42,548 nt of DNA from positions 1-42,548 of the forward strand of contig JAADIG010000139.1 in assembly GCA_013151445.1 (NCBI GenBank), read 5' to 3'. A model generated the notes under the pieces. The model saw only the letters and a program-made list of their open reading frames with translations, made no database searches and had not been told where the DNA came from. Numbering within the stretch: the stretch's first letter is position 1; each line of letters opens with the position of its first letter. The translations under genes and the position numbers were made by a program. Of the stretch, positions 6,387 to 42,538 are shown piece by piece. The DNA comes from Actinomycetota bacterium. Lineage in GTDB: Bacteria > Actinomycetota > Acidimicrobiia > Spongiisociales > UBA5794.

Positions 6387-7166
6387 TCAGGGATTCACGT
6401 CCATGTCGATACCTGTCGGCTGCGGCGCCTCCACCGCGGGCCAATCGAGGAGCTTGAGGTACGCCCCCTTGGCGTGCCAGGCGAGTCCCAATGCCCGGGT
6501 TGAACGCAGTCGTCGAATACGAAACGCCCATTCGTCCCACAACACGCGAGCCGCCGATGCATCCTCGGTGAGGGTTCCACTGCGGCCGAAGTACCAGCGA
6601 CGTCCGGGATGGCGAAACCCCTGTATAGCCAGTGGGACTCTGGGCACCGGATCGACATAGTTGATCACTCGAAAGATCCTGGACTGCAATCGGAAATTCA
6701 TCTGACGTGAGAACGCGGCCTTGCCGACACGTGGCTGGCCGAGGGTGACCACACCATCCACCTGACGGCCCAGGGACAGCAGGCGGGCAGCCGTCAACAC
6801 GGCGAGTGCGCCGCCGAGACTGTGACCGGTTAGAAAAACCTTCTTATCGGTGGAAAGAATAATCGGCCGGAGTTCATCCCATACGGCGTCGAGAGCTCGA
6901 CGGAACCCGCTGTGGACGCGGGTCCCGAGCGCCCCGAACTCGGTAGAGAACTCGGCGTCGTACAGCACGTCCTTGGTATCGTCCGTTCCCCGAAACGCGA
7001 CGACAAGATTGCGTTCGTCGGAGCCGACGACGACCACCGTGCCGGCTCGTTCGAACTGGATGATGTCGCGCAGGCCAAGCACGCCAACCCCGGTGACTAC
7101 CGCGTCGGGGCCTTCATAGGCCAAGATTGCCATCGCTGCTAGATCGCTCATCAATTCTCGTTGCAT
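6387..7166 (-). CDS. Class 3 lipase / alpha-beta hydrolase
   Basis: A 259-residue serine hydrolase of the lipase class 3 family (Rhizomucor lipase-like fold). The nucleophile is S116 in the elbow GHSLGGA. The family N-terminal strand NLVVAFRGTDD supplies the oxyanion region. The catalytic Asp is D172 in NYVDPVPRVP, and H231 near the C-terminus fits the catalytic His. There is no signal peptide or membrane segment, so it would act in the cytoplasm, unlike most secreted family members. The substrate cannot be read from the sequence. GGAGGGT lies four bases before the chosen ATG; a second in-frame ATG five codons on is a weaker alternative. It is divergent from the HisA-like gene. Confidence 0.85.
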   Translation of the reverse strand: MQRELMSDLAAMAILAYEGPDAVVTGVGVLGLRDIIQFERAGTVVVVGSDERNLVVAFRGTDDTKDVLYDAEFSTEFGALGTRVHSGFRRALDAVWDELRPIILSTDKKVFLTGHSLGGALAVLTAARLLSLGRQVDGVVTLGQPRVGKAAFSRQMNFRLQSRIFRVINYVDPVPRVPLAIQGFRHPGRRWYFGRSGTLTEDASAARVLWDEWAFRIRRLRSTRALGLAWHAKGAYLKLLDWPAVEAPQPTGIDMDVNP

Positions 7167-7300
7167 CTACCCTCCGAAGCGTTCGGTCACTCATCTGAGT
7201 GCCCCCGTCCGGGGGTGATACATCAAAATCACGCATCCCACTTCTCGGCAGCGGGCCCAAAATCCTGCAGTTCAATTCCCCCAAAGGACCCCAACCGCGG

Positions 7301-13217: not shown

Positions 13218-15557
13218 TTACTCGCAGGGTCCAGGCGGGTTTGCCTTCTCCCACGCAGCGAGCGCCTTGGTGGACTGCACAATCTTGCCGCGTCCGCGCG
13301 CCGCCAGTCTGCTGATCTCGCGTGTGGTCTTGTATCTCTCGCGGTCTCCCTTGCGGCTGTAGGGTCCCCTGTCTTTGGCGGAATCCTTCTCGAGGTTTCC
13401 AACGGTGTAGACATTCACCCGGGTGACACATTCCCACATCGCCCCGCGGCACTCCCAGATCTGCGTCGGCTGGATAGAGACCACTTGATAGAAGTACGCC
13501 GGACGCATGTATACCGTGACGTTGTCGTCCATCCACTCCGTGATCTTGCCAGCGACAAGCGCCCCCAGGTTCGCCGCGGCGGCGAGACCAACGGCGATAG
13601 CCTCCGGCAGACTCGTCGGGACGCTCGGAATAACCTCGGCTGCCCCAAGCCCGGTGACAGTCCCCGTCACACCGTCAAGCGACCCCTTCACTATTTTCCC
13701 GGTCTGGAACGACGAGGCGGCCGAAGCGATGCTCTTGCCAGAACCGGCACCACCCAGAATGTTGCCGATCGTACCGAGTGTCATCCCGGCGCTCTTCAAA
13801 CCGGCTGTCATTGCCTTGCCATGTTCGTGTGATCCGTGTTTCGATGCGTCGTCGATCGTCACGATGACATCAAAGTCCGTATACAACTTGAATTTCACTG
13901 CCGGTCCGATCGGGACCGTCACCGGATCCGGCTGCCCCTTCGCGTCGCATCCGGTGTTCTTGCGTGGTTCACTCGACACCGGCGGGGTGTAAACGGACGG
14001 CGGTGATGGTGGGGTCGTTGGCGGCGTGCCACCCCCGTCATCGGGTGGTTTTGGTGGTTCCGGGGGCGGTGGTGGCGGAGCTGTTGCAGCTTCAACGCAG
14101 GCCTCGTATTCGGCGCGCGCCGCTTCCTCAGCTTCAAGCGCTGCGTTGTAGGTTGCGAGACGGCGCTCAACATCCTCGTTGGCGCGCTCGACTTCCCACT
14201 GCGCATCGGCAATCGGCTCGACAAGCCCATCGATCAACTCCTGGAGATCGTCATACTGGATGAGCTGGCCATCGAGCTTGACCATGTCGAGCCCGCCGGA
14301 ACCACCCCGCGGACCGCTCTGGGCCTGGAGATACTCATCCCGGGTCGCCTCCATCTCCATGAGGAAGAGCTGCCGAGCCTGAAAATTCTCATACGCGGAA
14401 CCGAGGAACTCCTCGGCGGTCTCACGTTGTCTGGTGAGGTCCTTCCACTTTGCCAGCAGCGGATCACAGTCCTTCACCGGCGACTCCTCGTCGTCCTTCT
14501 TGGTGAAGATGAGCAACGCACCACCAATGCCTACGATACCGATCCCGATCGGTATCCAGGGGAATGATCCCCCCGTGCCATCCTCGCCCGTGCCATCCTC
14601 GCCCGTGGCAGGATCGTCGCCGGGGGAAGTGATGGTCGTCGCTGGCGGTGGTGTCGTGGTCGTTGTTGTCGTAGTCGACGTTGTCGTTGTGGTCGCGACC
14701 TCGGGGATCGAGAGTGGGATCACGGGTGGAAACACGACGAGATCGTCGATGGTTCGCGGCACCGGTGGGTAGGCATTGATGACCGAGAGGCACGTCTCAC
14801 AGGCGCCGTAGGAACCATCGTGTACGTGGGAGCCGAACGCCCAGCGCATTTCGCCGTCGCCGCCATTGGCGATCAGTGTGTTCAAATCGACGGCGGCGAT
14901 CATCCAATCGGGACCGGCAGCAAAGAAACCAGAAAAAGGAACGGACGCAAATTCGTTGTTTGCATCGATGAGTTCAACGAACGGGGCTTCTCCTGGTTGC
15001 ATCTTGGCACTGAGGATCAGCGACCCGCCCTGCCAGGTATCGCCGGGGAATGCATCGATCGCCTCCCACCCAGGGGAACCCTCGAACCCGACGACAAAAT
15101 CGATTTGGACAAACCGGTCGACACCGCCTTCGCCTTCATCAACCGAGGTGCCAAGATTGGGGTCACGGCCCGAGAAGAACATCGCCATCGGTACCTCGGG
15201 TAACGACTCGCCGCTCCCAGTAGCAAAAATGGTCGCTTCGCCTCGAATGACATCGATGGTGTTGCCAAATCCAACAGTTCCGGGATCGAATATGCCAGCA
15301 CCCACAACGTCGGGTTGGGCATACGGGGCATCGTTCCTTCCAAGTGTCGGTACCCCGCGAATATCATTGGCGTAGCGGTATGCGGTCCCCTCGGGTAGGG
15401 CATTGAGCAGGTCGGCAACGTTCACCGGCGAATTCACTGCCCAGTCTGTCTGATCGATAACCGAGATCGGTGTCGGTGTATCTTGAGAGGATTGGGCTCC
15501 TGCGATTCCCGAGACCCCCAAGACAAACACCGCGATCGCGGCTCCGATTCGTTTCAC
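13218..15557 (-). CDS. Large secreted, membrane-anchored protein of unknown function
   Basis: About 779 residues from a GTG preceded by GGAAGGAAG. A signal peptide (MKRIGAAIAVFVLGVSGIAGA) leads into an extracellular domain of roughly 260 residues with a few Cys, including the pair CETC. A Thr-run and Pro linker follows (around 290-310), then acidic Gly repeats (GEDGTGEDGTGG), then one membrane span (PWIPIGIGIVGIGGALLIF) and a KK stop-transfer. Beyond it are a charged coiled coil (about 370-490), a Pro-rich linker, and a C-terminal domain with Gly/Ala-rich amphipathic segments and four Cys. I recognise no family. The order signal-ectodomain-linker-TM-coiled coil suggests a surface sensor or envelope scaffold, which is inference only. 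Confidence 0.75.
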   Translation of the reverse strand: MKRIGAAIAVFVLGVSGIAGAQSSQDTPTPISVIDQTDWAVNSPVNVADLLNALPEGTAYRYANDIRGVPTLGRNDAPYAQPDVVGAGIFDPGTVGFGNTIDVIRGEATIFATGSGESLPEVPMAMFFSGRDPNLGTSVDEGEGGVDRFVQIDFVVGFEGSPGWEAIDAFPGDTWQGGSLILSAKMQPGEAPFVELIDANNEFASVPFSGFFAAGPDWMIAAVDLNTLIANGGDGEMRWAFGSHVHDGSYGACETCLSVINAYPPVPRTIDDLVVFPPVIPLSIPEVATTTTTSTTTTTTTTPPPATTITSPGDDPATGEDGTGEDGTGGSFPWIPIGIGIVGIGGALLIFTKKDDEESPVKDCDPLLAKWKDLTRQRETAEEFLGSAYENFQARQLFLMEMEATRDEYLQAQSGPRGGSGGLDMVKLDGQLIQYDDLQELIDGLVEPIADAQWEVERANEDVERRLATYNAALEAEEAARAEYEACVEAATAPPPPPPEPPKPPDDGGGTPPTTPPSPPSVYTPPVSSEPRKNTGCDAKGQPDPVTVPIGPAVKFKLYTDFDVIVTIDDASKHGSHEHGKAMTAGLKSAGMTLGTIGNILGGAGSGKSIASAASSFQTGKIVKGSLDGVTGTVTGLGAAEVIPSVPTSLPEAIAVGLAAAANLGALVAGKITEWMDDNVTVYMRPAYFYQVVSIQPTQIWECRGAMWECVTRVNVYTVGNLEKDSAKDRGPYSRKGDRERYKTTREISRLAARGRGKIVQSTKALAAWEKANPPGPCE
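14575..14609 (-). repeat. 15-bp in-frame tandem repeat
   Basis: The unit GTGCCATCCTCGCCC (plus strand) occurs twice exactly, at 14575-14589 and 14590-14604, followed by a partial third copy. It encodes the GEDGT repeats of the linker before the membrane span. Copy number could vary between strains. Confidence 0.7.
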
Positions 15558-30808: not shown

Positions 30809-31585
30809 CTACCCCGGCTGCTCGGATCGGATCACCGAGAACACGGCCCCCTGAGGGTCCGCGATAACCGCGGTTCTACCGACACCCGGCATGTCGACAG
30901 GTCCGTGGATCACTCGCCCACCGCCAGCAACGGCCGCATCGACGGTTGCATCGGTGTCGGCGACAGCGAAATACACACCCCACATGCTTGGCGCTCCATC
31001 AGGGAGCAAAGTGGTGGCATCCAGGAGACCGCCATTCATATTGGGGCCATTCATGATGGTGGTGTACGGCGGCTCCGAATCCTCCACCTTCTCAAAGGAC
31101 CAACCGAACAGGGCGATGTAGAACTCGGCGGCAGTCACCGGATCACGGGTCATGAGTTCGTTCCAAGTCAAGGAGTTCGGCGTGTTGAACTTTTCGCCCC
31201 CGTCGTGACCATCGGGCTGCCACAGCGAAAAGGCGGCCCCAACGGGGTCAACGATGTGTGCCATTGTGCCGGCGCCCTCAATGGTTCGCGGTTCAAGCAT
31301 GATCGTCGCACCCAGATTTCGTGCAGCACCGACGCTCGCCGCAACATCATCGACCGTGACGTAACTGTTCCACATCGACGGCACACCCTGTGCCTTCATC
31401 GCGGCCGAATGTTCACCAAGCCCGGCGACCAGATCACCTTCGTGAGTGAGCATCATGTACGTCGATCCGTCCGGTGTTGGTATGTCCTGCGACGACCATT
31501 CGAGCACCTTCTCATAGAACTCCCTCGCACCCGCTGCATCGGTCGACATCAAGTCGACCCAGTAGAAACCACCTGTCTTGTTCAC
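30809..31585 (-). CDS. Two-domain VOC (glyoxalase/bleomycin-resistance fold) protein
   Basis: About 258 residues with two tandem vicinal-oxygen-chelate domains. The first begins GGFYWVDLMSTDAAGAREFYEKVLEW and ends at GAAFSLWQP. The second begins LTWNELMTRDPVTAAEFYIALFGW and ends at GAVFSVI. This pairing resembles actinobacterial proteins such as mycobacterial CFP32 and daunorubicin hydroxylase-like VOC proteins. Substrate and metal use are unknown. I chose a GTG (MNKTGGFYW) because GGGAG lies eight bases upstream; an ATG six codons earlier has no ribosome-binding site. A GC-rich hairpin follows the stop. Confidence 0.85.
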   Translation of the reverse strand: MNKTGGFYWVDLMSTDAAGAREFYEKVLEWSSQDIPTPDGSTYMMLTHEGDLVAGLGEHSAAMKAQGVPSMWNSYVTVDDVAASVGAARNLGATIMLEPRTIEGAGTMAHIVDPVGAAFSLWQPDGHDGGEKFNTPNSLTWNELMTRDPVTAAEFYIALFGWSFEKVEDSEPPYTTIMNGPNMNGGLLDATTLLPDGAPSMWGVYFAVADTDATVDAAVAGGGRVIHGPVDMPGVGRTAVIADPQGAVFSVIRSEQPG

Positions 31586-31977
31586 AAAGAATGCTCCCTT
31601 CATCAAAGCTTCGAACCGGCAGGGGACACCCACGACGGTCCCGGCAACTGCCGAGCTCCACCGTATCGGGTGGGTGTGACAAGAAACTGCGTGGAGCGGA
31701 ATCGGTTCGGCCCCGCAACGAACGCGGCAAAGACCACCGATTCCCCTACACAATCAGTGGCCTTCGCCCGTGGCCCGCCGTCCAAGCCGGACTTGCGTCC
31801 TAGCCCATTCTGCGGTGGTGATTCGGAACAAGTTCACAGCCCGAAACAAACCAGACCCGCTCCCGTCACCACCCCCTACCTTTGCGCCGGTGGCCCCCCT
31901 CTTGGCTACACCGACACGCATAAGAGCATCCACCACGGAACCTGATACAAAAACATCCGAGAAATCTTGCAGCAGTG
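31586..31977. other. 392-bp gap between the VOC and CHAT genes
   Basis: No convincing gene. A 60-codon minus-strand frame (31754-31936) lacks a clear start signal and family. No tRNA T-loop or structured RNA stands out. The region probably holds the VOC promoter and the 3' end of the CHAT transcript. Confidence 0.4.
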
Positions 31978-34524
31978 CTAGAAAGGTAAGGAAGTCGCCC
32001 GGCCGAGCGACACAAAGGATGCCGCGGTGATCCGTTCAACATCGGTACTCGCCGTGGCTACCACACTCGCAAGGGCCTCAGCCGAGTCCATTCCCCTCGA
32101 CATCGCTTCGTAGAATCCACTCATGACGGCAGCTGTGTACTCGTCGGAGACTACGAACAGTGGTGCCACGACGGTCGTCGCACCCATCCCCAGGAATGCG
32201 ACACCAAGACTCATGACGTCCGCCCCCGGTTTGCTGGAAGATGCGGCGGCGTCGCAAGCTGCAAGCACCACAAACGGTGGTGCGGCGCCGACCGCCTCGA
32301 CGTCATAGATTCGAAACGGTCCGTCCTCGAGCTCGAGCGAGCTGAACATTGGATTATCGAAACGAGGCGTGGCGTGGGCTGCGATATGTGCAACACCGAC
32401 TGATCCGAGGGAACGCAATAACTCGTCGCCGGTACGCACCACCGAAGCGTCCAGCCGTGCTGCAACGGCAGCAATCTCTTGCTCGGCGGCGTCAAGCCTT
32501 GGACCGGCCACAACGACGGAGCCATCGCGGCGTGCAGCGGGTGAGCGCATCCACGTTTGAACCGCGGGAACGACCTCCACAGGTACCGACGTCGCCAACA
32601 ACCAGGGAACAGCCTGGGTCGATGGAGACGGAACAATGAGCAGCCTCGCCGCAGATCCGGCGGGGTCGAGTAACGATGTGCGGACCTTGTCTGCATGGTG
32701 TTTCACCAAGTCACATGCGGCTGAAATCCCGCGGAGAGATCCAACACCGCGGGCAACCCGACGCACAGCACTAACAAGCTGTCGAAGTTCCTCACCCACC
32801 GTCGCCAAGTCGCCGACAACAACGACTCGGCTGCCGACGGCATCGACAACTAACGCCATGAGATCCGGATCGTGGTCGAAGAACATGACCAGGGTGCGGT
32901 CCCCCAGCGCGCCCACAAGAGCTTCGAAACCCAGGCCGGGCGACACATCCTGGTGAGCTCCAGTGCTGACGCGAGCGGCGGTTGCGAGTTCGGATTCACG
33001 GATCTGGATCTCGCGCAAGAGATCGGGGTTCTCCGGGTCGCTCACCACTGCAGCAGCGACCTTCCGCAGGGCAACGCGTGCGGCGTCCACCGACTGGGTG
33101 TGCGCCATACGCTCCAACGCCAGTGAGCCCGCTCGCACCCACTCCAGCCACCGAAAGAGCAGGGATGGATCGGCCTTATCTAGAGCTATGTCGATAGCTA
33201 AACGAGCGATCTCCTCGCCCTGATGAGCAGCAAGCAGACGCAATTCCGTGGCGCCGAGCGACGAACGGTACGAGTCAAGGGCCGCCGCGGATTTCTCAAG
33301 GTAGGAAAGGGCAGCATCGTGTGAATCGGCCAACGCTGCATTCGCTATCGATCTGAGAAGGTCCAGTTCAAGACCCTCCGCGTCGGAACTGACACCGGCC
33401 GCAAGCTGGTGGGCGACGTCGGCGAATCCCATGCGTACGGCGAGCGGCACAGCAGCGAGACGAACATGTGCCGCATCGACCCCCTCCTCCGCATCGGTGT
33501 CTGCAGAGACCGACAGGAGGGTTGCAAATGTCCGCTCATCGGCGACACCGTTGGCGAGCCGAACTCTCGCTCCGGCGAGCAGCAGGTCCGGGCTGTACCG
33601 GGATTGAACCGAGGGTGTGCCGACGGTTTCGACCACACGCAGGGCTTCTTCCTTTTTCCCAGTCCGCATGTAGACATCGATCAACTGCAGGTAACCGTGG
33701 CGCAGCACAATGTCGTTGCCGTCGTGTGCCTCGAGGCGCGGAATCGCAGACTCCAACACCTCGATGGCTTCCTCATAGAGACCGGCGGCAATGAGTACGT
33801 CCGCTCGTTCCATGTGGCCGACGAGGTGGTCGGGCACATGGTTGTCGTAGAGTTCCCCGGCAATGCTCTGCCACTGCAACGCGGCTGGCATCTTGCCCAG
33901 ATCGGCGTGTGCTCGGGCCAGATGCAGTGCGGCGTCCGCGGCGGTGGCCGGATGCCGGTTTGCGCTCGCCGTCGTATAGACCGTCTCGAGATCATGAATG
34001 GCGGCTTCGAGCCTTCCAAGACCCAGGTGCATGGACCCGCGGTTTCCGTAGACGAGCTCGACAAGGCTTGCCTCCTCGAGTTCGAAACGATCGCACACCC
34101 CATCCAACAACGCTATCGCTTCGCAATAACGTGCTGCCTGCCCAAGGATAAAGGCGTGTTGCAACTCCGCCTTCATGAGCTCTTCTCCGTCGAGAAGAGA
34201 ACTTGCCCGCTCAATCGTGTGGAGTGCTCTTGGAATATCACCACCGCCGGCGTAGTCGAATGCGAGGCTCCGGAGCGTTTCACCCAAGAGTTGGGTATTC
34301 CCGACGGATTGGGCAAGCGCGGCGGCACGCTCCAGATACTTGATGGCAACGTCCGAGGCGTACACCATGCGATTGGCGAGTCCGATCGTCGATAGGGCGA
34401 TGATTTCGGCCTCCACCCCGGGCTCTTCGGCGAGGACCGCTTCCGCTTCACGAATCGCACGCCGTGGGTCACCCCTGCTGAACGCATAGGCGTGCCGGGC
34501 GCGCTCTACCGATGACGGGGTCAC
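31978..34524 (-). CDS. TPR-CHAT protein (caspase-like protease with TPR sensor region)
   Basis: An 848-residue protein. Residues 1 to about 480 are repeated helix pairs of TPR type, for example the repeats around AIKYLERAAALAQSVGN, ALHTIERASSLLDG, AIHDLETVYTTASA and AIEVLESAIPRLEAHD. The C-terminal part is a CHAT domain, clan CD with caspases and separase. H717 lies in VAHIAAHATP and C757 in FVVLAACDAA, the expected catalytic dyad. There is no signal peptide or membrane span, so it should act in the cytoplasm. The start GTG overlaps the stop of a 30-codon ORF (GTGA), and an upstream subtilase gene is on the same strand. No other start codon exists in this frame back to the subtilase. The proteolytic target is unknown. 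Confidence 0.88.
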   Translation of the reverse strand: MTPSSVERARHAYAFSRGDPRRAIREAEAVLAEEPGVEAEIIALSTIGLANRMVYASDVAIKYLERAAALAQSVGNTQLLGETLRSLAFDYAGGGDIPRALHTIERASSLLDGEELMKAELQHAFILGQAARYCEAIALLDGVCDRFELEEASLVELVYGNRGSMHLGLGRLEAAIHDLETVYTTASANRHPATAADAALHLARAHADLGKMPAALQWQSIAGELYDNHVPDHLVGHMERADVLIAAGLYEEAIEVLESAIPRLEAHDGNDIVLRHGYLQLIDVYMRTGKKEEALRVVETVGTPSVQSRYSPDLLLAGARVRLANGVADERTFATLLSVSADTDAEEGVDAAHVRLAAVPLAVRMGFADVAHQLAAGVSSDAEGLELDLLRSIANAALADSHDAALSYLEKSAAALDSYRSSLGATELRLLAAHQGEEIARLAIDIALDKADPSLLFRWLEWVRAGSLALERMAHTQSVDAARVALRKVAAAVVSDPENPDLLREIQIRESELATAARVSTGAHQDVSPGLGFEALVGALGDRTLVMFFDHDPDLMALVVDAVGSRVVVVGDLATVGEELRQLVSAVRRVARGVGSLRGISAACDLVKHHADKVRTSLLDPAGSAARLLIVPSPSTQAVPWLLATSVPVEVVPAVQTWMRSPAARRDGSVVVAGPRLDAAEQEIAAVAARLDASVVRTGDELLRSLGSVGVAHIAAHATPRFDNPMFSSLELEDGPFRIYDVEAVGAAPPFVVLAACDAAASSSKPGADVMSLGVAFLGMGATTVVAPLFVVSDEYTAAVMSGFYEAMSRGMDSAEALASVVATASTDVERITAASFVSLGRATSLPF

Positions 34525-34613
34525 GATCGGTATCCCGTGGGCAGGTTCAGTTGCGGGTCGCCTCTCCGACCGGACCTGGCTGGCTGGCTGGCACCGAGAT
34601 CTCTCTGTAACAC
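34521..34613 (-). CDS. 30-codon coupling ORF between subtilase and CHAT genes
   Basis: A GTG-started frame of 30 codons, with GGGAGG nine bases upstream and its TGA overlapping the GTG of the CHAT gene. The peptide begins MLQRDLGASQPARSGRRG and ends LPTGYRS, and is basic. The CHAT gene has only a weak ribosome-binding site of its own, so this ORF probably delivers ribosomes to it by termination-reinitiation. Whether the peptide itself has a role is open. Confidence 0.45.
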   Translation of the reverse strand: MLQRDLGASQPARSGRRGDPQLNLPTGYRS

Positions 34614-34630
34614 CCCCGTCGACCTCCCGA

Positions 34631-35884
34631 CTAGAAGAGCGCTTCCAAGATGTCGGAAACCGACGGCACCGAACCACCGACAGCACCGGCGGCGACACCC
34701 GCAGCGATGGGAGCGGCAAAGGAGGTACCGGTGAAGAGGGCCCAGCCCTTGAAGTTCTGCTTCGAGACGAAATCGCCGGTGTTCTTCTCTCCGCCCTCGA
34801 TCGTGTAGGTACCGGTCAGGAATGGCGCCGGTACACGAACCCCCGGGGCCGCAAGTTGCGCACACACACCGCTGTTTGACCATGGCGCCAGCGCCAGCTT
34901 TGGTAACCCGGCGTACGGCGCCAGCACGACCTTGGCGGCGCCGCGGGCATACGCCAGATCCATTGCACTCGACTTCCAGGCACCAACACCGACAACATCG
35001 GGGTCTGACGCCGGGTACACCGTTGGATCGTCGCCACTGTTGCCTGCGGATGCGATCACCACGGTGGACCCCAAGTACGGATCAAGGGCCCGTGCGGTGG
35101 CGGGCATCGCTCCCGACCGGGTCGAGCCGCCAAGCGGCAGGACAAGCATGTGTACCCGATGTTCGCCGAGCAGTCGCTCGATCGCATCGGCAAGCGCCGT
35201 GTCGCTCATCGTGCCGGGAACATCACCCTTTGCGGTCGCGACGGTTGCCGTGACGACCCGAGATTCTGGAGCGAGCTGCTTAATGATGCTGACGACGGCG
35301 TTGCCGTGTCCGACGGTCACACTGTGCGTAGATCGCTCAGCGGGCAGTGCTCCCACTACGTCAAAGTCAACACCTTCCGTCGCCCAGGACGGATGTCCAG
35401 CGGCAACCGGATCATAGAAAAATGAGTCAATCACGCCGATCGTCACGCACTCGCCTCTGCCCTTCAGCGGTCTTGTCGCGATCTTCGCCGGGTCCACAGC
35501 CTGCGGGCGCAGCACTGCAAGTCCTCCAAGGTGGAAGTGTGTTGTCAGGACATGATTCGGTTCGACTGCGAGCGGACCACTCAGAAGATTCACGAGTTGG
35601 TCAATTCGGGTCCGTGCATCAACCTCGATCGTGACCAGGCCGGTGTCACCGACCGGTGTCGTTGGACACTCAGCGATATCGATGCGGCGCAGAGCTACCA
35701 GGACGTCGTCCACCGCCCCAGAGTCCGCCACCAGCTCACCGGTAACGTAATAGTAGGCGCCACCGACACCTTTCCCCGAGTGACGGATCCGCTTACCCCC
35801 CACGCGAGCCCGTGGCCCATCGAGCGGGTTGGCCGGCGAACGTGGTTTCCCTTTGCTTGGTCCTTTGCCGTGTCCCGCACTCAT
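34631..35884 (-). CDS. Cytoplasmic S8 (subtilisin-like) serine protease
   Basis: A 417-residue S8 peptidase. The catalytic triad is D153 (IGVIDSFFYD), H193 (VGHGNAVVSII) and S388 (FTGTSFAAPIAAG). The oxyanion Asn is N282 (ASAGNSGDD). About 145 residues precede the protease domain, starting with a Gly/Lys/Pro-rich stretch. No signal peptide or propeptide is evident, so the enzyme should be cytoplasmic, which is unusual for S8 enzymes. GGGAG six bases before the ATG supports the start. It heads a minus-strand operon with the CHAT gene and is divergent from a sigma factor gene 93 bp away. Co-occurrence with CHAT suggests a protease relay, which is inference. Confidence 0.9.
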   Translation of the reverse strand: MSAGHGKGPSKGKPRSPANPLDGPRARVGGKRIRHSGKGVGGAYYYVTGELVADSGAVDDVLVALRRIDIAECPTTPVGDTGLVTIEVDARTRIDQLVNLLSGPLAVEPNHVLTTHFHLGGLAVLRPQAVDPAKIATRPLKGRGECVTIGVIDSFFYDPVAAGHPSWATEGVDFDVVGALPAERSTHSVTVGHGNAVVSIIKQLAPESRVVTATVATAKGDVPGTMSDTALADAIERLLGEHRVHMLVLPLGGSTRSGAMPATARALDPYLGSTVVIASAGNSGDDPTVYPASDPDVVGVGAWKSSAMDLAYARGAAKVVLAPYAGLPKLALAPWSNSGVCAQLAAPGVRVPAPFLTGTYTIEGGEKNTGDFVSKQNFKGWALFTGTSFAAPIAAGVAAGAVGGSVPSVSDILEALF

Positions 35885-35977
35885 CTCAGTCTCCCTAATC
35901 GTGCCACCTGCGTTGCCCCATCTTCCACCAGTTTGCCAGAATCGCCACTTCAGGGAGACGACTCCTACAATTTGGCC
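35885..35977. promoter_or_regulatory. Shared divergent control region of the sigma/protease cluster
   Basis: This 93-bp region separates the subtilase and sigma factor starts. It contains an exact 8-bp inverted repeat, GTCTCCCT at 35889-35896 and AGGGAGAC at 35952-35959. The left copy overlaps the subtilase ribosome-binding site and the right copy lies just before the -10 box of the sigma gene. Self-recognition by the sigma factor is possible but not shown. Confidence 0.45.
35966..35971 (+). promoter_or_regulatory. Putative -10 box of the sigma factor gene (leaderless)
   Basis: TACAAT, six bases (TTGGCC), then the GTG start. There is no Shine-Dalgarno sequence. The near-consensus hexamer suggests transcription by the housekeeping sigma factor. 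Confidence 0.6.
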
Positions 35978-36526
35978 GTGGATTCACTCACCGAACCGAG
36001 CAATGCCTCCCTACTGCAAGCGGCCAATGCGGGCAGCTCCGAAGCATGGGACAACCTCGTCGAGCGCTACCACCGTCTCGTGTGGTGGTCGCTCGCCAGT
36101 CACCGGTTCGATCGCGCAACGGCCGAAGACGTATACCAGACGGTGTGGTGTCGGCTGGTCGAGAACCTCGGATCGATCCGCAACCCCGATTACCTCGCAT
36201 CGTGGCTCACGACGACCACGCGCAATGAGGCTATCCGTGTGTCGAAGAAACGCTCACGCGAAACACCTACCGAGTTCGAGGACCGGTTCGCCGCACCCGA
36301 CTCTCCCGAAACAGACGCCGTCGACAACGACGAACGGAGGCGCGTCGGCAAGGCGTTCCTCGCCCTCGACGAGCCGTGTCGAGAACTACTCACCCTGCTC
36401 ACCGCAGAACCCCCGTTGAGCTACTCCGAGGTCGCCCATGCGATCGGCAAACCCATCGGTTCTCTTGGTCCCACTCGGGCACGGTGCCTCACCAAGCTCG
36501 AAGCGATCCTGGAAGAAACATCATGA
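35978..36526 (+). CDS. Sigma-70 family (ECF-like) RNA polymerase sigma factor
   Basis: A 182-residue alternative sigma factor. Region 2 spans about residues 18-85 (AWDNLVERYHRLVWWSLASHRFDRATAEDVYQTVWCRLVENLGSIRNPDYLASWLTTTTRNEAIR), and the AEDVYQTVW and SWLTTTTRNEA blocks are typical. A linker with acidic residues follows, then region 4 with a helix-turn-helix (LSYSEVAHAIGKPIGSLGPTRARCLTKLEAIL). Region 3 is absent, as in ECF factors. The frame continues upstream, but the GTG chosen follows a TACAAT box. It is divergent from the subtilase and followed after 52 bp by a small protein, which may be its partner. No classical zinc-type anti-sigma factor is adjacent. Confidence 0.88.
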   Translation: MDSLTEPSNASLLQAANAGSSEAWDNLVERYHRLVWWSLASHRFDRATAEDVYQTVWCRLVENLGSIRNPDYLASWLTTTTRNEAIRVSKKRSRETPTEFEDRFAAPDSPETDAVDNDERRRVGKAFLALDEPCRELLTLLTAEPPLSYSEVAHAIGKPIGSLGPTRARCLTKLEAILEETS

Positions 36527-36578
36527 CGATGTATCACGACGCACCGTCACGACTCTGTTTAGTGCGAAGGGGATTTAG

Positions 36579-37046
36579 GTGGATGTAAACCCAGACGAAG
36601 AGGAACGGCGGGAACACCACATGTTGGATGCAGTACGAAAAGGGATTGCGTGGCTCCACCCGGAGCCTGACAACCTGGCTGAGTGCGCTTCGGGCCTCTA
36701 CTCGCTGCGCACGCTCGACGGCGAGCTGGCTGCACTGGCGTACGACTCCTCAGTGGATGAAACCATTTCCGTTCGCTCAACGGGGACCCTCACACGCGTC
36801 TTGAGTTTCGAGGCCGACGCCGCAACCTTCGAGATGGAGGTGGACGATCGCCTCCGCACCATCATCGGACAGGTGGTACCCCCGATGGATGGACACGTCG
36901 AGCTGCAGGGAACGGCAGGCTCCCAAACTACCGAGCTTGGTGCGATCGGTTCGTTCGAGTTCACCAACATCCCGACCGGCCCGCTGCATCTACGCGTCAT
37001 CGTGGACGAACAGGTCGTCGCAACGACCGAATTCTTCACCCTCTAG
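36579..37046 (+). CDS. Small protein with C-terminal beta-sandwich domain, partner of the sigma gene
   Basis: A 155-residue cytoplasmic protein of unknown function. The N-terminal half is acidic and mixed alpha-beta (HMLDAVRKGIAWLHPEPD; ELAALAYDSSVDETIS). The C-terminal 65 residues look like a carboxypeptidase-regulatory-like beta sandwich: VDDRLRTIIGQVVPP, GHVELQG, IGSFEFTNIPTGPLHLRVIVDE. AAGGGG six bases before the GTG supports the start. It follows the sigma factor by 52 bp and is probably in its operon. From its position it could be an anti-sigma factor or adaptor, but it has no His/Cys anti-sigma motif or membrane span. Confidence 0.75.
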   Translation: MDVNPDEEERREHHMLDAVRKGIAWLHPEPDNLAECASGLYSLRTLDGELAALAYDSSVDETISVRSTGTLTRVLSFEADAATFEMEVDDRLRTIIGQVVPPMDGHVELQGTAGSQTTELGAIGSFEFTNIPTGPLHLRVIVDEQVVATTEFFTL

Positions 37047-38852: not shown

Positions 38853-41800
38853 CTACGCCTCGTCTCGGGTGATGAAATACTTCGCCCGCGGATGGTGGGC
38901 AATGATCGCTGACGTAGTTTGCTCCGGCTGGTATTGCCAACCGGTGTCTTCGCTGACCACGATCCCGAGCCGGTCCGCACCAAGAAGGTCGGCGACACGG
39001 GCGTTGTCCTGCAGGTCGGGACAGGCCGGATACCCCCATGAGTATCGACTCCCCCGATACTGCTGACGGAAGAGACCGAGCACCGTGGGACCGTCCTCAT
39101 CACCAAACCCCCACTCGTCGCGGATGCGCTTGTGCCATAGTTCGGCCAACGCCTCGGCCATCTCGACTCCGAGACCGTGGGTGAACAAATAGTCACGGTA
39201 TTCGTTGGCCGCAAACAGGTCAGCAGTGACATCCGATACGCGCCCGCCCATCGTCACGATGTGAAAGGCTGCGTAGTCAAGCTCGGTACTAACAACCGGG
39301 CGATAGAAATCGGCGATGCACAGGAACGGTGCTTGAGCCTGACGGGGAAATCGGAACCGGGTTCGTTCAACGACGCGGGTTTCGTCCTCCCAAACGATGA
39401 GATCATCACCGTCACTGTTGACCGGGAAGTATCCGTACACAACCTGTGGCACGAGGAGATCTGCTGCCTTGGCTGCTGCAAGCCGACGACGGAACTCGGG
39501 GCGGATACGGTCCTTGAACTCGGCATCGCTCTCATCGCCACGGGGACGGTATTGCCATTGGTTTCTAAACAGCGCGGTTTCATTGACGAACGCTGCGATG
39601 TCGTCGAGCGGAATGCCCTTGACGACACGAGATCCCACAAACGGTGGCACGAATAGTTGATTGTCCGTCACGACCTCAGGTGATCGGAGCGGCAATTCGA
39701 TTGCTACAGATTCTCGGATCATCTCCGGGAACGCTGGTCGCGTTGCGAGCCGACCGAAATCGGTGTTGGTAACCCCCGTGCGTTTCATCTCTGCGATCTT
39801 GTCCATCACGTCGAGACCAGCGAAGGCATCCTTACCGTAGAACAGGGGTCCGTCGTAGACACCACGGAGATCGCCCTCAACATATTTGCGCGTGAGCGCC
39901 GCCCCACCCAACAATACGGGCGTGTGCTGAAGCCCACGCCTCGTGATTTCTTCGAGGTTGTCGCGCATGATCAACGTCGACTTCACGAGCAACCCCGACA
40001 TGCCGATCGCGTCGGCGTCGACCTCGAGAGCTTTCTCGACCATGTCCTGAATTCCGACCTTGATACCAAGGTTGTGCACCCTGTACCCGTTATTCGTGAG
40101 GATGATGTCTACAAGGTTCTTCCCTATGTCGTGAACGTCACCACGCACGGTTGCGAGGACGATGGAGGCGCGCTCGTTGGTCTCCGACTTCGCCATGTAC
40201 GGTTCGAGGTACGCCACCGATGCCTTCATCGTCTCGGCCGACTGCAGAACGAACGGCAACTGCATTTCGCCGCTCGCAAACCGTTCACCGACGACCTTCA
40301 TGCCGCTGAGCAGCACTTCGTTGACGATCGACAGTGCTGACATCCTTCCCAGCGCCTTATCGAGGTCATCCGACAACCCATCCCGATCCCCCTCGATGAT
40401 TCGTGCCGCGAGGCGATCCTCGACGGTCCATCCACTGCGGTCTTCGCGAACCAACTTCACCGATTCGACGTCGGCGAACAGTTCGAGAAGTTTCGTCAGC
40501 GGGTCGTACCCATCGCGACGCCGGTCGTAGATTAGGTCGAGGCACACCGCCGCTTGCTCTTCGGAGATCCGGTCCATGGGGACGATGCGTCCGGCGTGAA
40601 GAATCGCGGAGTCGAGTCCGGCCTCCACACATTCGTGGAGGAACACCGAATTGAGGACATGGCGGGCAGCGGGTTTCAAACCGAACGACACGTTGGATAT
40701 GCCCAGGGTCGTCGTACAATCCGGCAACTCGGCCTTGATCCGGCGGATCGCCTCGATGGTTGCCATGGCATCGCGACGTAGATCGTCACCGCCGGTAGAG
40801 AGCGGAAATGTGAGCGCGTCGAAGATGAGGTCGGTCGCCTCAAGCCCGTATCGAGTGGTTGCGATGTTGTAGAGCCGGTGCGCGACTCGCATTTTCCACT
40901 CGACGTCGCGTGCCTGGCCCTCCTCGTCGATAAGGAGACAGATCACTCCGGCGCCGTGTTCTTTCGCCAAGGTCAAGACACGATCGAGGCGTGACCCAGG
41001 GGCATCACCCTCTTCGAGGTTTGCTGAATTCACAATGGAGCGACCCCCGATTCGCTCAAGCCCGGCCTGCATGACCTCCGGCTCGGTCGAGTCGAGCACG
41101 ATCGGGGCGGCCACCTGGGTTGCAAAGCGCGCAGCGATCTCGTCCATGTCACGCACACCGTCGCGCCCGACATAGTCGACACACAAATCGACCAAGTGGG
41201 CCGACTCGGCGACCTGATCCTTCCCAACCTGGGTGCAGGAATCCCAATCCTCGGCGAGCAGCGCATCTCTGAACTTCTTCGAGCCGTTTGCGTTCGTGCG
41301 TTCACCAACAATCAGCATCGAGGTGTCCTGGTTGAATGGCACAAACGAGTACATCGATGTCGCACCCGCCTCGTGCACAGGATCGCGCCGCGCAGGTTCA
41401 AGGTCCCGACAAACGTCGATAACTGCCTTGAGATCATCAACCGTGGTCCCGCAGCAACCGCCGACGACACTCACACCGAAATCGGCGATGAACTCGGCGT
41501 GGTGGCTAGCAAGCTCCGCGGACGTAAGGTCGTAGTGCATTTCCCCATCGACGACCGATGGCAGACCGGCATTGGGTATGACGGAGATCGGCATGCGGGA
41601 ATGTCGCGACAAGTGTCGGACATGTTCGATCATCTCCGCCGGACCAGTCGCACAGTTGAGACCTACGACGTCGACACCGAGCGGATCGATCGCAGCAAGG
41701 GCCGCACCGATTTCGGTGCCGGGCAGCATCCGTCCAGTGACCTCCATCGTCACTTGCGCCTGGATTGCAACAGTACGCCCGGCGGCGCGCATGGCAGCCC

Positions 41801-42323
41801 GTGCTCCGTTCACTGCCGCCTTCAAACCCAGTAGGTCAAACTGGGTTTCTACGATGAACAGGTCAACACCGCCGTCCAATAGTCCACGCGCCTGCTCTTC
41901 GTAGCTGTCGCGGAGTTCGGAGTATCGGATGTGGCCAAGGGATGCGAACTTGGTACCCGGACCGATCGACCCGGCCACCCACCGCGGGTGGTCGGCGGTG
42001 GCGTGATCCCGTGCGACACGTACTGCTATTTCTGCCGATACCTTCGACAGTTCGTACGCCCGGTCGGCGATCCCATATTCGGCGAGGGTGATCGACGATC
42101 CACCGAACGTGTTCGTCTCGACGACATCACACCCAATGGCGAGAAACGAGTCGTGGAACGTCTCGATAACGTCCGGGCGCGTCACCGAGAGAAGCTCGTT
42201 GCATCCGTCGAGGTCAGGTCCACCAAAGTCGTCCGCTGTGAGGTTCGCCTGTTGAAGGGTGGTACCCGTCGCACCGTCAAAGATGACAACGCGCGAGTTG
42301 ACCGCGTCGAGGTAACCGTTCAC
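38853..42323 (-). CDS. metH: Cobalamin-dependent methionine synthase
   Basis: A 1156-residue enzyme that methylates homocysteine using 5-methyl-THF and B12. Domains in order: homocysteine domain (1 to about 315; zinc ligands C224, C290, C291 in GLNCATGP and GGCCGTT), pterin-binding domain (about 335-600; IVGERTNANGSKKF), cobalamin cap (about 630-715), B12-binding Rossmann domain with DVHDIG (729-734; H731 is the lower axial ligand), and the C-terminal AdoMet-activation domain (about 890-1156; RYSWGYPACPDL). All modules are present. The start is GTG and overlaps the stop of a 19-codon leader ORF (GTGA). An S-box riboswitch lies upstream, and the metF-like gene is coupled downstream. Confidence 0.95.
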   Translation of the reverse strand: MNGYLDAVNSRVVIFDGATGTTLQQANLTADDFGGPDLDGCNELLSVTRPDVIETFHDSFLAIGCDVVETNTFGGSSITLAEYGIADRAYELSKVSAEIAVRVARDHATADHPRWVAGSIGPGTKFASLGHIRYSELRDSYEEQARGLLDGGVDLFIVETQFDLLGLKAAVNGARAAMRAAGRTVAIQAQVTMEVTGRMLPGTEIGAALAAIDPLGVDVVGLNCATGPAEMIEHVRHLSRHSRMPISVIPNAGLPSVVDGEMHYDLTSAELASHHAEFIADFGVSVVGGCCGTTVDDLKAVIDVCRDLEPARRDPVHEAGATSMYSFVPFNQDTSMLIVGERTNANGSKKFRDALLAEDWDSCTQVGKDQVAESAHLVDLCVDYVGRDGVRDMDEIAARFATQVAAPIVLDSTEPEVMQAGLERIGGRSIVNSANLEEGDAPGSRLDRVLTLAKEHGAGVICLLIDEEGQARDVEWKMRVAHRLYNIATTRYGLEATDLIFDALTFPLSTGGDDLRRDAMATIEAIRRIKAELPDCTTTLGISNVSFGLKPAARHVLNSVFLHECVEAGLDSAILHAGRIVPMDRISEEQAAVCLDLIYDRRRDGYDPLTKLLELFADVESVKLVREDRSGWTVEDRLAARIIEGDRDGLSDDLDKALGRMSALSIVNEVLLSGMKVVGERFASGEMQLPFVLQSAETMKASVAYLEPYMAKSETNERASIVLATVRGDVHDIGKNLVDIILTNNGYRVHNLGIKVGIQDMVEKALEVDADAIGMSGLLVKSTLIMRDNLEEITRRGLQHTPVLLGGAALTRKYVEGDLRGVYDGPLFYGKDAFAGLDVMDKIAEMKRTGVTNTDFGRLATRPAFPEMIRESVAIELPLRSPEVVTDNQLFVPPFVGSRVVKGIPLDDIAAFVNETALFRNQWQYRPRGDESDAEFKDRIRPEFRRRLAAAKAADLLVPQVVYGYFPVNSDGDDLIVWEDETRVVERTRFRFPRQAQAPFLCIADFYRPVVSTELDYAAFHIVTMGGRVSDVTADLFAANEYRDYLFTHGLGVEMAEALAELWHKRIRDEWGFGDEDGPTVLGLFRQQYRGSRYSWGYPACPDLQDNARVADLLGADRLGIVVSEDTGWQYQPEQTTSAIIAHHPRAKYFITRDEA

Positions 42324-42450: not shown

Positions 42451-42538
42451 CGCTCATCGTTCAGGCATTGGCACCGTGTGTTACCCCGGTTGCCGCGGTT
42501 TCAAAGGGCCTGTCCCTCCACCGCTCTGGATGATCGCG
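42451..42538 (-). promoter_or_regulatory. SAM-I (S-box) riboswitch aptamer
   Basis: Read on the minus strand, the region has the conserved S-box order: AGAGCGGTGGAGGGAC, then GGCCC, TGAAACC, GGCAACC, and GGTGCCAATGCC. A closing P1 helix forms from CGCGATCATC with GATGAGCG (42451-42458). These are the core SAM-binding and kink-turn elements of the SAM-I family, which turns off methionine genes when SAM is abundant. It lies 72 nt upstream of the leader ORF of metH. The exact 5' boundary is close to the window edge. Confidence 0.88.

Follow-up and report, generated by a model that had tools for sequence, protein, structure and literature searches.

An ECF54-type gene module of Actinomycetota as a candidate protease-gated sigma factor circuit with a recurrent promoter motif

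The window analyzed here is the whole stretch of 42,548 nucleotides (positions 1 to 42,548, forward strand) of contig JAADIG010000139.1, GenBank assembly GCA_013151445.1, from an actinomycetotal bacterium (Acidimicrobiia; Spongiisociales; UBA5794). It carries four neighboring genes coding for a TPR-CHAT protease, an S8 family protease (S8), an extracytoplasmic function (ECF) sigma factor, and a small beta-sandwich protein, here called BSW. The four genes are a real and widespread actinobacterial module, with the gene context of the sigma factor group ECF54. The features that can be read from the sequence are the gene set, the partnership of sigma and BSW, intact proteases, a sigma-type promoter motif, a predicted RNA structure, and a putative promoter in front of a lipase gene. 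We propose, with the balance of our confidence about even, that ECF54-type modules are proteolytically gated ECF sigma factors in which BSW is a candidate anti-sigma factor.

The open reading frames lie where the original prediction had placed them, and Pfam identifies CHAT plus TPR, Peptidase_S8 and Sigma70_r2 domains. The TPR-CHAT protease gene (31978–34524, − strand) matches PF12770 with 81.5 bits and TPR_12 with 37.5 bits; its start is assumed at GTG 34524 and is uncertain, with the earlier H717/C757 numbering reproduced from there. The S8 gene (34631–35884, − strand; PF00082, 56 bits) is separated from the divergently transcribed sigma gene by 93 bp (35885–35977), the intergenic stretch already described. 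The sigma gene (35978–36526, + strand) codes for 182 amino acids with the sigma2–sigma4 architecture of an ECF factor, as had been proposed (TIGR02937, 81.8 bits over residues 22–176; Sigma70_r2, 42.5 bits), and is followed by the BSW gene (36579–37046, + strand; 155 residues).

CHAT relatives are found in 17 of 50 genomes of the window's family (protein search, E up to 1e-10) and 36 of 296 genomes of the phylum (E up to 1e-15), and further loci came from searching GTDB contigs with an alignment of CHAT proteins, the best 80 of 260 matching stretches being used; the GTDB locus titles are actinobacterial, and the scope of the analysis is Actinomycetota. The full four-gene set is present in 112 of 136 fetched CHAT loci (family 12/18, phylum 29/38, GTDB 71/80), and many of the incomplete loci are on short contigs. 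Two pairs (L069/L152 and L067/L157) are each one locus counted in two sets, and closely related loci are numerous in the GTDB set (Lentzea, Micromonospora, Saccharothrix). The order and orientation of the genes are highly variable. The adjacency that the original prediction asked to have checked is thus common; a correction to that prediction is that the neighborhood has been published, excerpts of a review presenting it as the ECF54 context (PMC8999054).

A BSW profile, built partly from the same loci and run on the 296 phylum genomes irrespective of CHAT neighborhood, matched 36/36 CHAT-positive genomes vs 2/260 CHAT-negative ones, one of the two weakly (Fisher 2.6e-44). The profile also matched BSW genes distant from CHAT or on separate contigs. 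Of twelve regions of this kind that we examined, two hold a complete second module and five have a sigma–BSW pair without a full CHAT gene alongside (L235, L236, L237, L239, L240); the L240 pair (genome G200) lies beside a partial CHAT gene where the contig ends and is probably one module split by an assembly break. We note two further arrangements: Actinomadura rubrisoli (L176) has two complete modules tail to tail (BSW− SIG− S8− CHAT+ CHAT− S8+ SIG+ BSW+), and L078, L080, L085 and L088 have a CHAT–S8 pair with no adjoining sigma or BSW gene and a BSW gene elsewhere in the genome, possibly as satellite protease pairs.

In 118 of 123 BSW matches a sigma gene lies directly upstream in the same orientation; directly after a sigma gene is the usual position of an anti-sigma gene. 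Window BSW has no Pfam, NCBIfam or PADLOC match, and 27 of 79 family members scanned match CarboxypepD_reg (best E 2.8e-5), window BSW being without such a match. The AlphaFold2 model (pLDDT 90.6) has two N-terminal helices (5–26 and 33–45) followed by a beta-sandwich, in keeping with the beta-sandwich fold first suggested for it. Foldseek gave no match for BSW at E 0.001 or better, and the matches listed by VIA are mostly sandwiches of the Ig, Fn3 and CBM56 types, with Z up to 8.1; Csx30 and anti-sigma folds are absent among those listed, which excludes nothing. By family match BSW looks non-enzymatic, and the "carboxypeptidase" of the published ECF54 context would be BSW, a relative of the non-enzymatic CarboxypepD_reg domain. 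Because of its place directly after sigma and this type of match, we regard BSW as a candidate anti-sigma factor.

Both proteases appear intact. An alignment of all CHAT matches from the fetched loci has 144 rows, of which 139 conserve H713, H717 and C757 of the CHAT protein, the remaining five being gapped; L021 and L101 have split CHAT genes. In S8, D153 is Asp in 133 of 134 rows (one gap), S388 is Ser in 132 (two gaps), and H193 is His in 130 (one gap), so the catalytic residues named earlier (CHAT H717 and C757; S8 D153, H193 and S388) were correctly numbered and are conserved among homologues. Among the CHAT chains matched by the profile of the CHAT family are 8d9f (E 4e-9), which we take to be Csx29, and, more strongly, 8rot, a 991-residue CHAT protein (E 3e-15). 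The earlier claim that secretion signals are lacking holds for the window S8, where hydropathy over 19 residues reaches a maximum of 1.46, and does not extend to all of its relatives, as described below.

We predict that the S8 protease is synthesized as a zymogen of the pro-subtilisin type. Its AlphaFold2 model (pLDDT 91.8) has an Asp/His/Ser triad and a prodomain packed before the catalytic domain, and the best VIA match is unautoprocessed pro-subtilisin E (3whi; Z 26.2, root mean square deviation 3.5, 280 aligned residues), with pro-Tk-subtilisin (2e1p) at Z 25.4; the matches cover model residues 48–417. The zymogen prediction is made because of these similarities to unprocessed pro-subtilisins and because 9 of 60 S8 relatives match the fervidolysin prodomain family, which is absent from the families listed for the window protein. 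We also note one group (L086–L103) in which the N-terminal segments of several S8 proteins are hydrophobic and BSW carries a long extension at its N-terminus, so that the module there may sense outside the cell.

A recurrent sigma-type motif precedes sigma and S8 genes. GTATC words were spotted by eye upstream of sigma genes, and 7-mers were then counted upstream of sigma, S8 and CHAT genes: TGTATCA ranks second for sigma, and GTATCAG and CGTATCA rank first and second for S8. In the aligned sites GTATC[A/T] is separated by 15 or 16 positions from [G/C][C/G]TC, with the full form tGTATC[A/T]-N15/16-[G/C][C/G]TC. Among representatives picked by hand, about one per genus, the strict motif occurs in the sense direction within 250 nt upstream of 13/55 sigma, 13/53 S8, 3/56 BSW and 0/56 CHAT genes, compared with 133 of 11200 segments drawn at random from these loci and 0.3–0.4% of shuffles. 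On the opposite strand the counts are one for sigma, five for S8 and eleven for CHAT, as expected for loci with a divergent S8 or sigma gene.

A weight matrix was made from 42 sites, with the window and a congener (locus L021, genome G007) excluded from training. Across 85038 positions in the window, the best site (20.9) is at 31922–31951 (− strand) after the CHAT stop, the second (16.7) at 36528–36557 (+ strand) before BSW, and the third (16.0) at 7195–7224 (− strand) before a lipase gene; the fourth (14.3), at 15475 (+ strand), has only a doubtful frame downstream. The congener has matching sites before BSW (15.1) and after CHAT (15.4). No strong site was found by the matrix in the 93-bp region, where the best score is −2.6. 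The same region holds GTTTGCCAGAATCG (35931–35944, + strand), common to window and congener, with 41 matches at up to two mismatches in the window genome vs 5 in the reversed control, and 35 vs 12 in the congener.

In 149 loci (2.36 Mb, including near-duplicates) there are 168 sites scoring at least 13 vs 29 in the reversed sequence; 44 precede sigma, 35 S8 (both partly by construction), 7 BSW, and 82 none of these, of which 9 are in loci without a gene table (L235–L246) where some do precede sigma or BSW. We infer that the module's own sigma recognizes the motif, since it precedes sigma's own operon. In two genomes of one genus, strong sites (L077, 11589, − strand; L100, 5117, + strand) lie directly before a module-adjoining gene for a LuxR-type regulator.

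The best site in the window lies 27 nt past the CHAT stop with no protein gene directly downstream, and about 190 nt following it can be aligned between the window and the congener. We predict that this region (31728–31921, − strand, ends approximate) encodes a structured RNA whose hairpin loops contain G-runs. Two hairpins, chosen by eye (31886–31915 and 31732–31762), keep 20 of 20 pairs in the congener, with two compensatory and three one-sided changes between the two sequences; the loop regions hold GGGGGG in one and GUAGGGGA in the other, and the second hairpin is followed by UUU in the window. The segment 31772–31921 folds with z −2.35, and its best fold includes the first hairpin, which in the congener forms in a 100-nt segment and is not in the best fold of a 150-nt segment.

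Similar G-runs follow unassigned sites elsewhere. With duplicates from L152 removed, 22 of 79 such sites, one of which (L239) actually precedes a sigma gene, are followed within 200 nt by two or more G-runs of length five or above vs one followed by such C-runs; among random segments the number is 526 of 24000 (Fisher 2.8e-18). Fifteen of the 22 are 12–93 nt past a CHAT, S8 or BSW stop on the same strand, and among them are sites from 9 of the 19 loci of the family (window and L021–L038). Eighteen were folded, with z of −2 or lower in 11 (window −2.35, best −4.90) and higher in seven (L029 +0.42, L158 +0.04, L074 −0.67, L075 −1.03, L181 −1.37, L184 −1.37, L073 −1.77). In the terminal hairpin of L024, L025 and L028, 3 of 15 pairs are compensatory, a number equaled by 20 of 500 shuffles of these three sequences. 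Rfam gave no match at the gathering score for the RNA region or eight loci, and for L028 the matches are all below threshold; the 6C RNA, which has C-run loops on the other strand, was considered and is not reported by Rfam. We read the region as a putative RNA gene that accompanies the module in some lineages only. The alternative is a structured terminator or 3' untranslated region; an RNA gene is favored by the promoter-like motif that precedes the region and by the G-runs near these sites being biased to one strand.

The third site in the window lies about 30 nt upstream of a class 3 lipase gene (6387–7166, − strand; PF01764, 89.6 bits), a candidate target in trans, whose product has no signal peptide by eye. 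Sixteen related genes are present in 15 of 50 family genomes, and the motif is found 27–34 nt before the aligned lipase start in 5 of 9 CHAT-positive genomes and before none of seven genes of CHAT-negative genomes (no match at E 1e-10; some genomes are incomplete). The scores are 16.7 (G000), 17.4 (G007), 12.9 (G012), 16.7 (G032) and 10.5 (G033), three of the five exceeding the 99% point of random segments from the same loci (15.2; the 95% point is 8.6). Because of the constant distance and the association with CHAT, the lipase is likely a target of sigma in this family, on small numbers. In L176 a gene for a patatin-like phospholipase beside the module has a site scoring 22.2, 45 nt before its start, and together with the lipase this makes a self-damaging output possible. 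A VOC/glyoxalase-like gene (30809–31603, − strand; PF00903, 62.6 bits) about 320 nt past the motif at 31951 was considered as its direct target; this is possible and not favored, because the structured RNA lies between motif and gene.

Genome-wide, the strict pattern gives 31 sites in eight genomes vs 23 for the reversed pattern. The count for nine further genomes, given below, is near control, so that the regulon in trans may be small, and on neither count do we claim a large one. A pattern drawn from the five known sites of the genus finds five sites in the window genome vs none in the control, three of them used in drawing it; of the other two, one is before a frame that looks lipoprotein-like by eye and one is over another long frame.

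How these parts might work together can be outlined as follows. At rest, BSW would keep the sigma factor inactive. The TPR superhelix would bind a signal and switch on the CHAT cysteine protease, by analogy with the family. CHAT would then activate the S8 zymogen, or S8 would act alongside it, and BSW would be removed. The freed sigma would recognize the motif described above and raise its own module (sigma–BSW and/or S8, or BSW alone in the genus of the window), the G-run RNA encoded immediately behind a module gene in some lineages, and the class 3 lipase in the window's family. The anti-sigma role of BSW, sensing by the TPR, the CHAT–S8 order, proteolytic release and the biological role are thus steps put together from context, and control of S8 by the motif could feed back positively should BSW be the protein that S8 removes, and negatively should it be sigma. 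A stronger version, in which a protease relay frees sigma to make a small G-run RNA and an intracellular lipid hydrolase as a self-limiting or suicidal response carried by a portable actinobacterial module, with the RNA in some of its lineages and its loops possibly mimicking Shine-Dalgarno sequences or pairing with C-rich RNA, we consider rather improbable.

The module resembles several described systems. According to excerpts of PMC8999054, which cites Casas-Pastor 2021 and Huang 2015 for the group, ECF54 has been suggested to be under proteolytic control with no anti-sigma factor involved, on the grounds that a carboxypeptidase, a subtilase and a CHAT protein are conserved in its context. 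All three are present here, the carboxypeptidase-type protein through the CarboxypepD_reg matches of BSW relatives and not of the window's own BSW. The genes and the idea of proteolytic control are the same; where these excerpts have a carboxypeptidase and no anti-sigma factor, we find a small, apparently non-enzymatic, sigma-linked protein, and the promoter motif, the RNA and the lipase target found here are unmentioned in them. A full-text literature search, as excerpted, likewise gave no motif, RNA or lipase target for the group; the defining ECF papers are outside it, and it is no proof that such features are unpublished.

There are ECF sigma factors that proteases release, as Csx29/Csx30/CASP-sigma (excerpts of PMC10028731) and CalpL/T/S (excerpts of PMC11417357) illustrate. 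In the Type III-E CASP/Craspase system one locus encodes a TPR-CHAT protease (Csx29), an ECF sigma factor and Csx30, an inhibitor that binds sigma and is cleaved by Csx29 (PMC10028731, in part). CalpL/T/S follows the same logic of a protease, an anti-sigma factor (CalpT) and an ECF sigma factor (CalpS), and differs in its Lon-SAVED protease and cyclic oligoadenylate trigger; CHAT, S8 and an RNA product are unmentioned in the excerpts of PMC11417357. The present module differs from Craspase in its additional S8 protease and in a 155-residue protein as the inhibitor candidate, and a Csx29-type CRISPR system was rejected for the window, as its CHAT scores 9.7 bits vs a cut-off of 300 bits (NF041237). 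In the SAVED-CHAT cascade the second protease is reportedly caspase-like and not S8. A CHAT protease initiates that cascade, with a SAVED sensor instead of TPR (excerpts of PMC11229360).

Other explanations of the module have to be set against proteolytic release of sigma from BSW. The proposal in excerpts of PMC8999054, put forward from gene context, has no anti-sigma factor: the proteases degrade sigma until a signal stops them, and BSW would be an adaptor or further substrate. The motif before S8 genes (13/53) would then give negative feedback, and yet the supposed carboxypeptidase is a non-enzymatic sandwich by family match, sitting in the anti-sigma gene position; we think this proposal unlikely. 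We consider it doubtful to a high degree that BSW is instead a co-activator, targeting factor or effector cleaved by the proteases. The Ig/Fn3-like sandwich is a common binding fold, BSW has its own sigma-type promoter in window and congener, and some BSW genes lack an upstream sigma; induction of an inhibitor by its sigma is, however, an ordinary homeostatic loop compatible with an anti-sigma role. A role in stress or in envelope and lipid homeostasis rather than phage defense, with the lipase remodeling lipids and the RNA tuning translation, is a serious contender that falls just short of an even chance. The module is flanked on either side by genes common to window and congener (NAT, VOC, rhomboid), unlike a mobile defense island; PADLOC finds only weak matches in the window (CHAT: BovA, 22 bits; S8: subtilase model, 30.9 bits); and no fifth protein gene is common to the module, the largest cluster reaching 8 of 77 loci. 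Against homeostasis are the patchy presence in family and phylum and the action of known relatives of the same logic in immunity.

The reading of the module as a protease-gated sigma factor has several observations weighing against it. No specific sequence or fold match naming BSW an anti-sigma factor was found, five of the 123 BSW genes have no sigma directly upstream, and in five of the twelve additional BSW regions there is no strong sigma match there. H193 of S8 is replaced by Tyr in three relatives. A stretch of mean hydropathy of at least 1.9 is present in 19 of 134 S8 proteins, near the N-terminus in 11 of the 12 top ones listed, and S8 members with such strongly hydrophobic stretches may be exported. 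The congener CHAT gene has one in-frame TAG, with the S8, sigma and BSW frames open, which is decay or sequence error, and the L101 CHAT gene is fragmented. The strict motif is missing in 42 of 55 sigma and 40 of 53 S8 representatives, lipase genes are without it in four of nine CHAT-positive genomes, and a count of the strict pattern over nine further genomes of the family gives 15 sites vs 9 in the control. Within 260 nt after CHAT, at least two G runs are found in 14 of 137 loci vs C runs in 9 (CHAT genes with at least 200 nt past the stop), which limits how general the RNA can be. We conclude that control of sigma by the proteases, as suggested in the original prediction, is supported in part, by the recurrence of the genes, the conserved catalytic residues and the fit of the context.

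Elsewhere in the window, the sole Rfam match is a SAM riboswitch (RF00162, 75.5 bits; 42451–42536, − strand) upstream of a large frame (38853–42323, − strand) that looks MetH-like by eye.

What is new here is the recurrent sigma-type motif before sigma and S8 genes and the predicted RNA of about 190 nt with G-run loops just past CHAT. A neighborhood known from context alone thereby becomes a testable circuit, with a motif, an anti-sigma candidate that a misleading "carboxypeptidase" label had masked, a predicted S8 zymogen, a candidate RNA and a likely lipase target, in genera that include Micromonospora, Lentzea, Saccharothrix and Salinispora. If the proposal is true, protease-gated sigma release, shown so far beside CRISPR (CASP, CalpL), would be a general actinobacterial strategy too.

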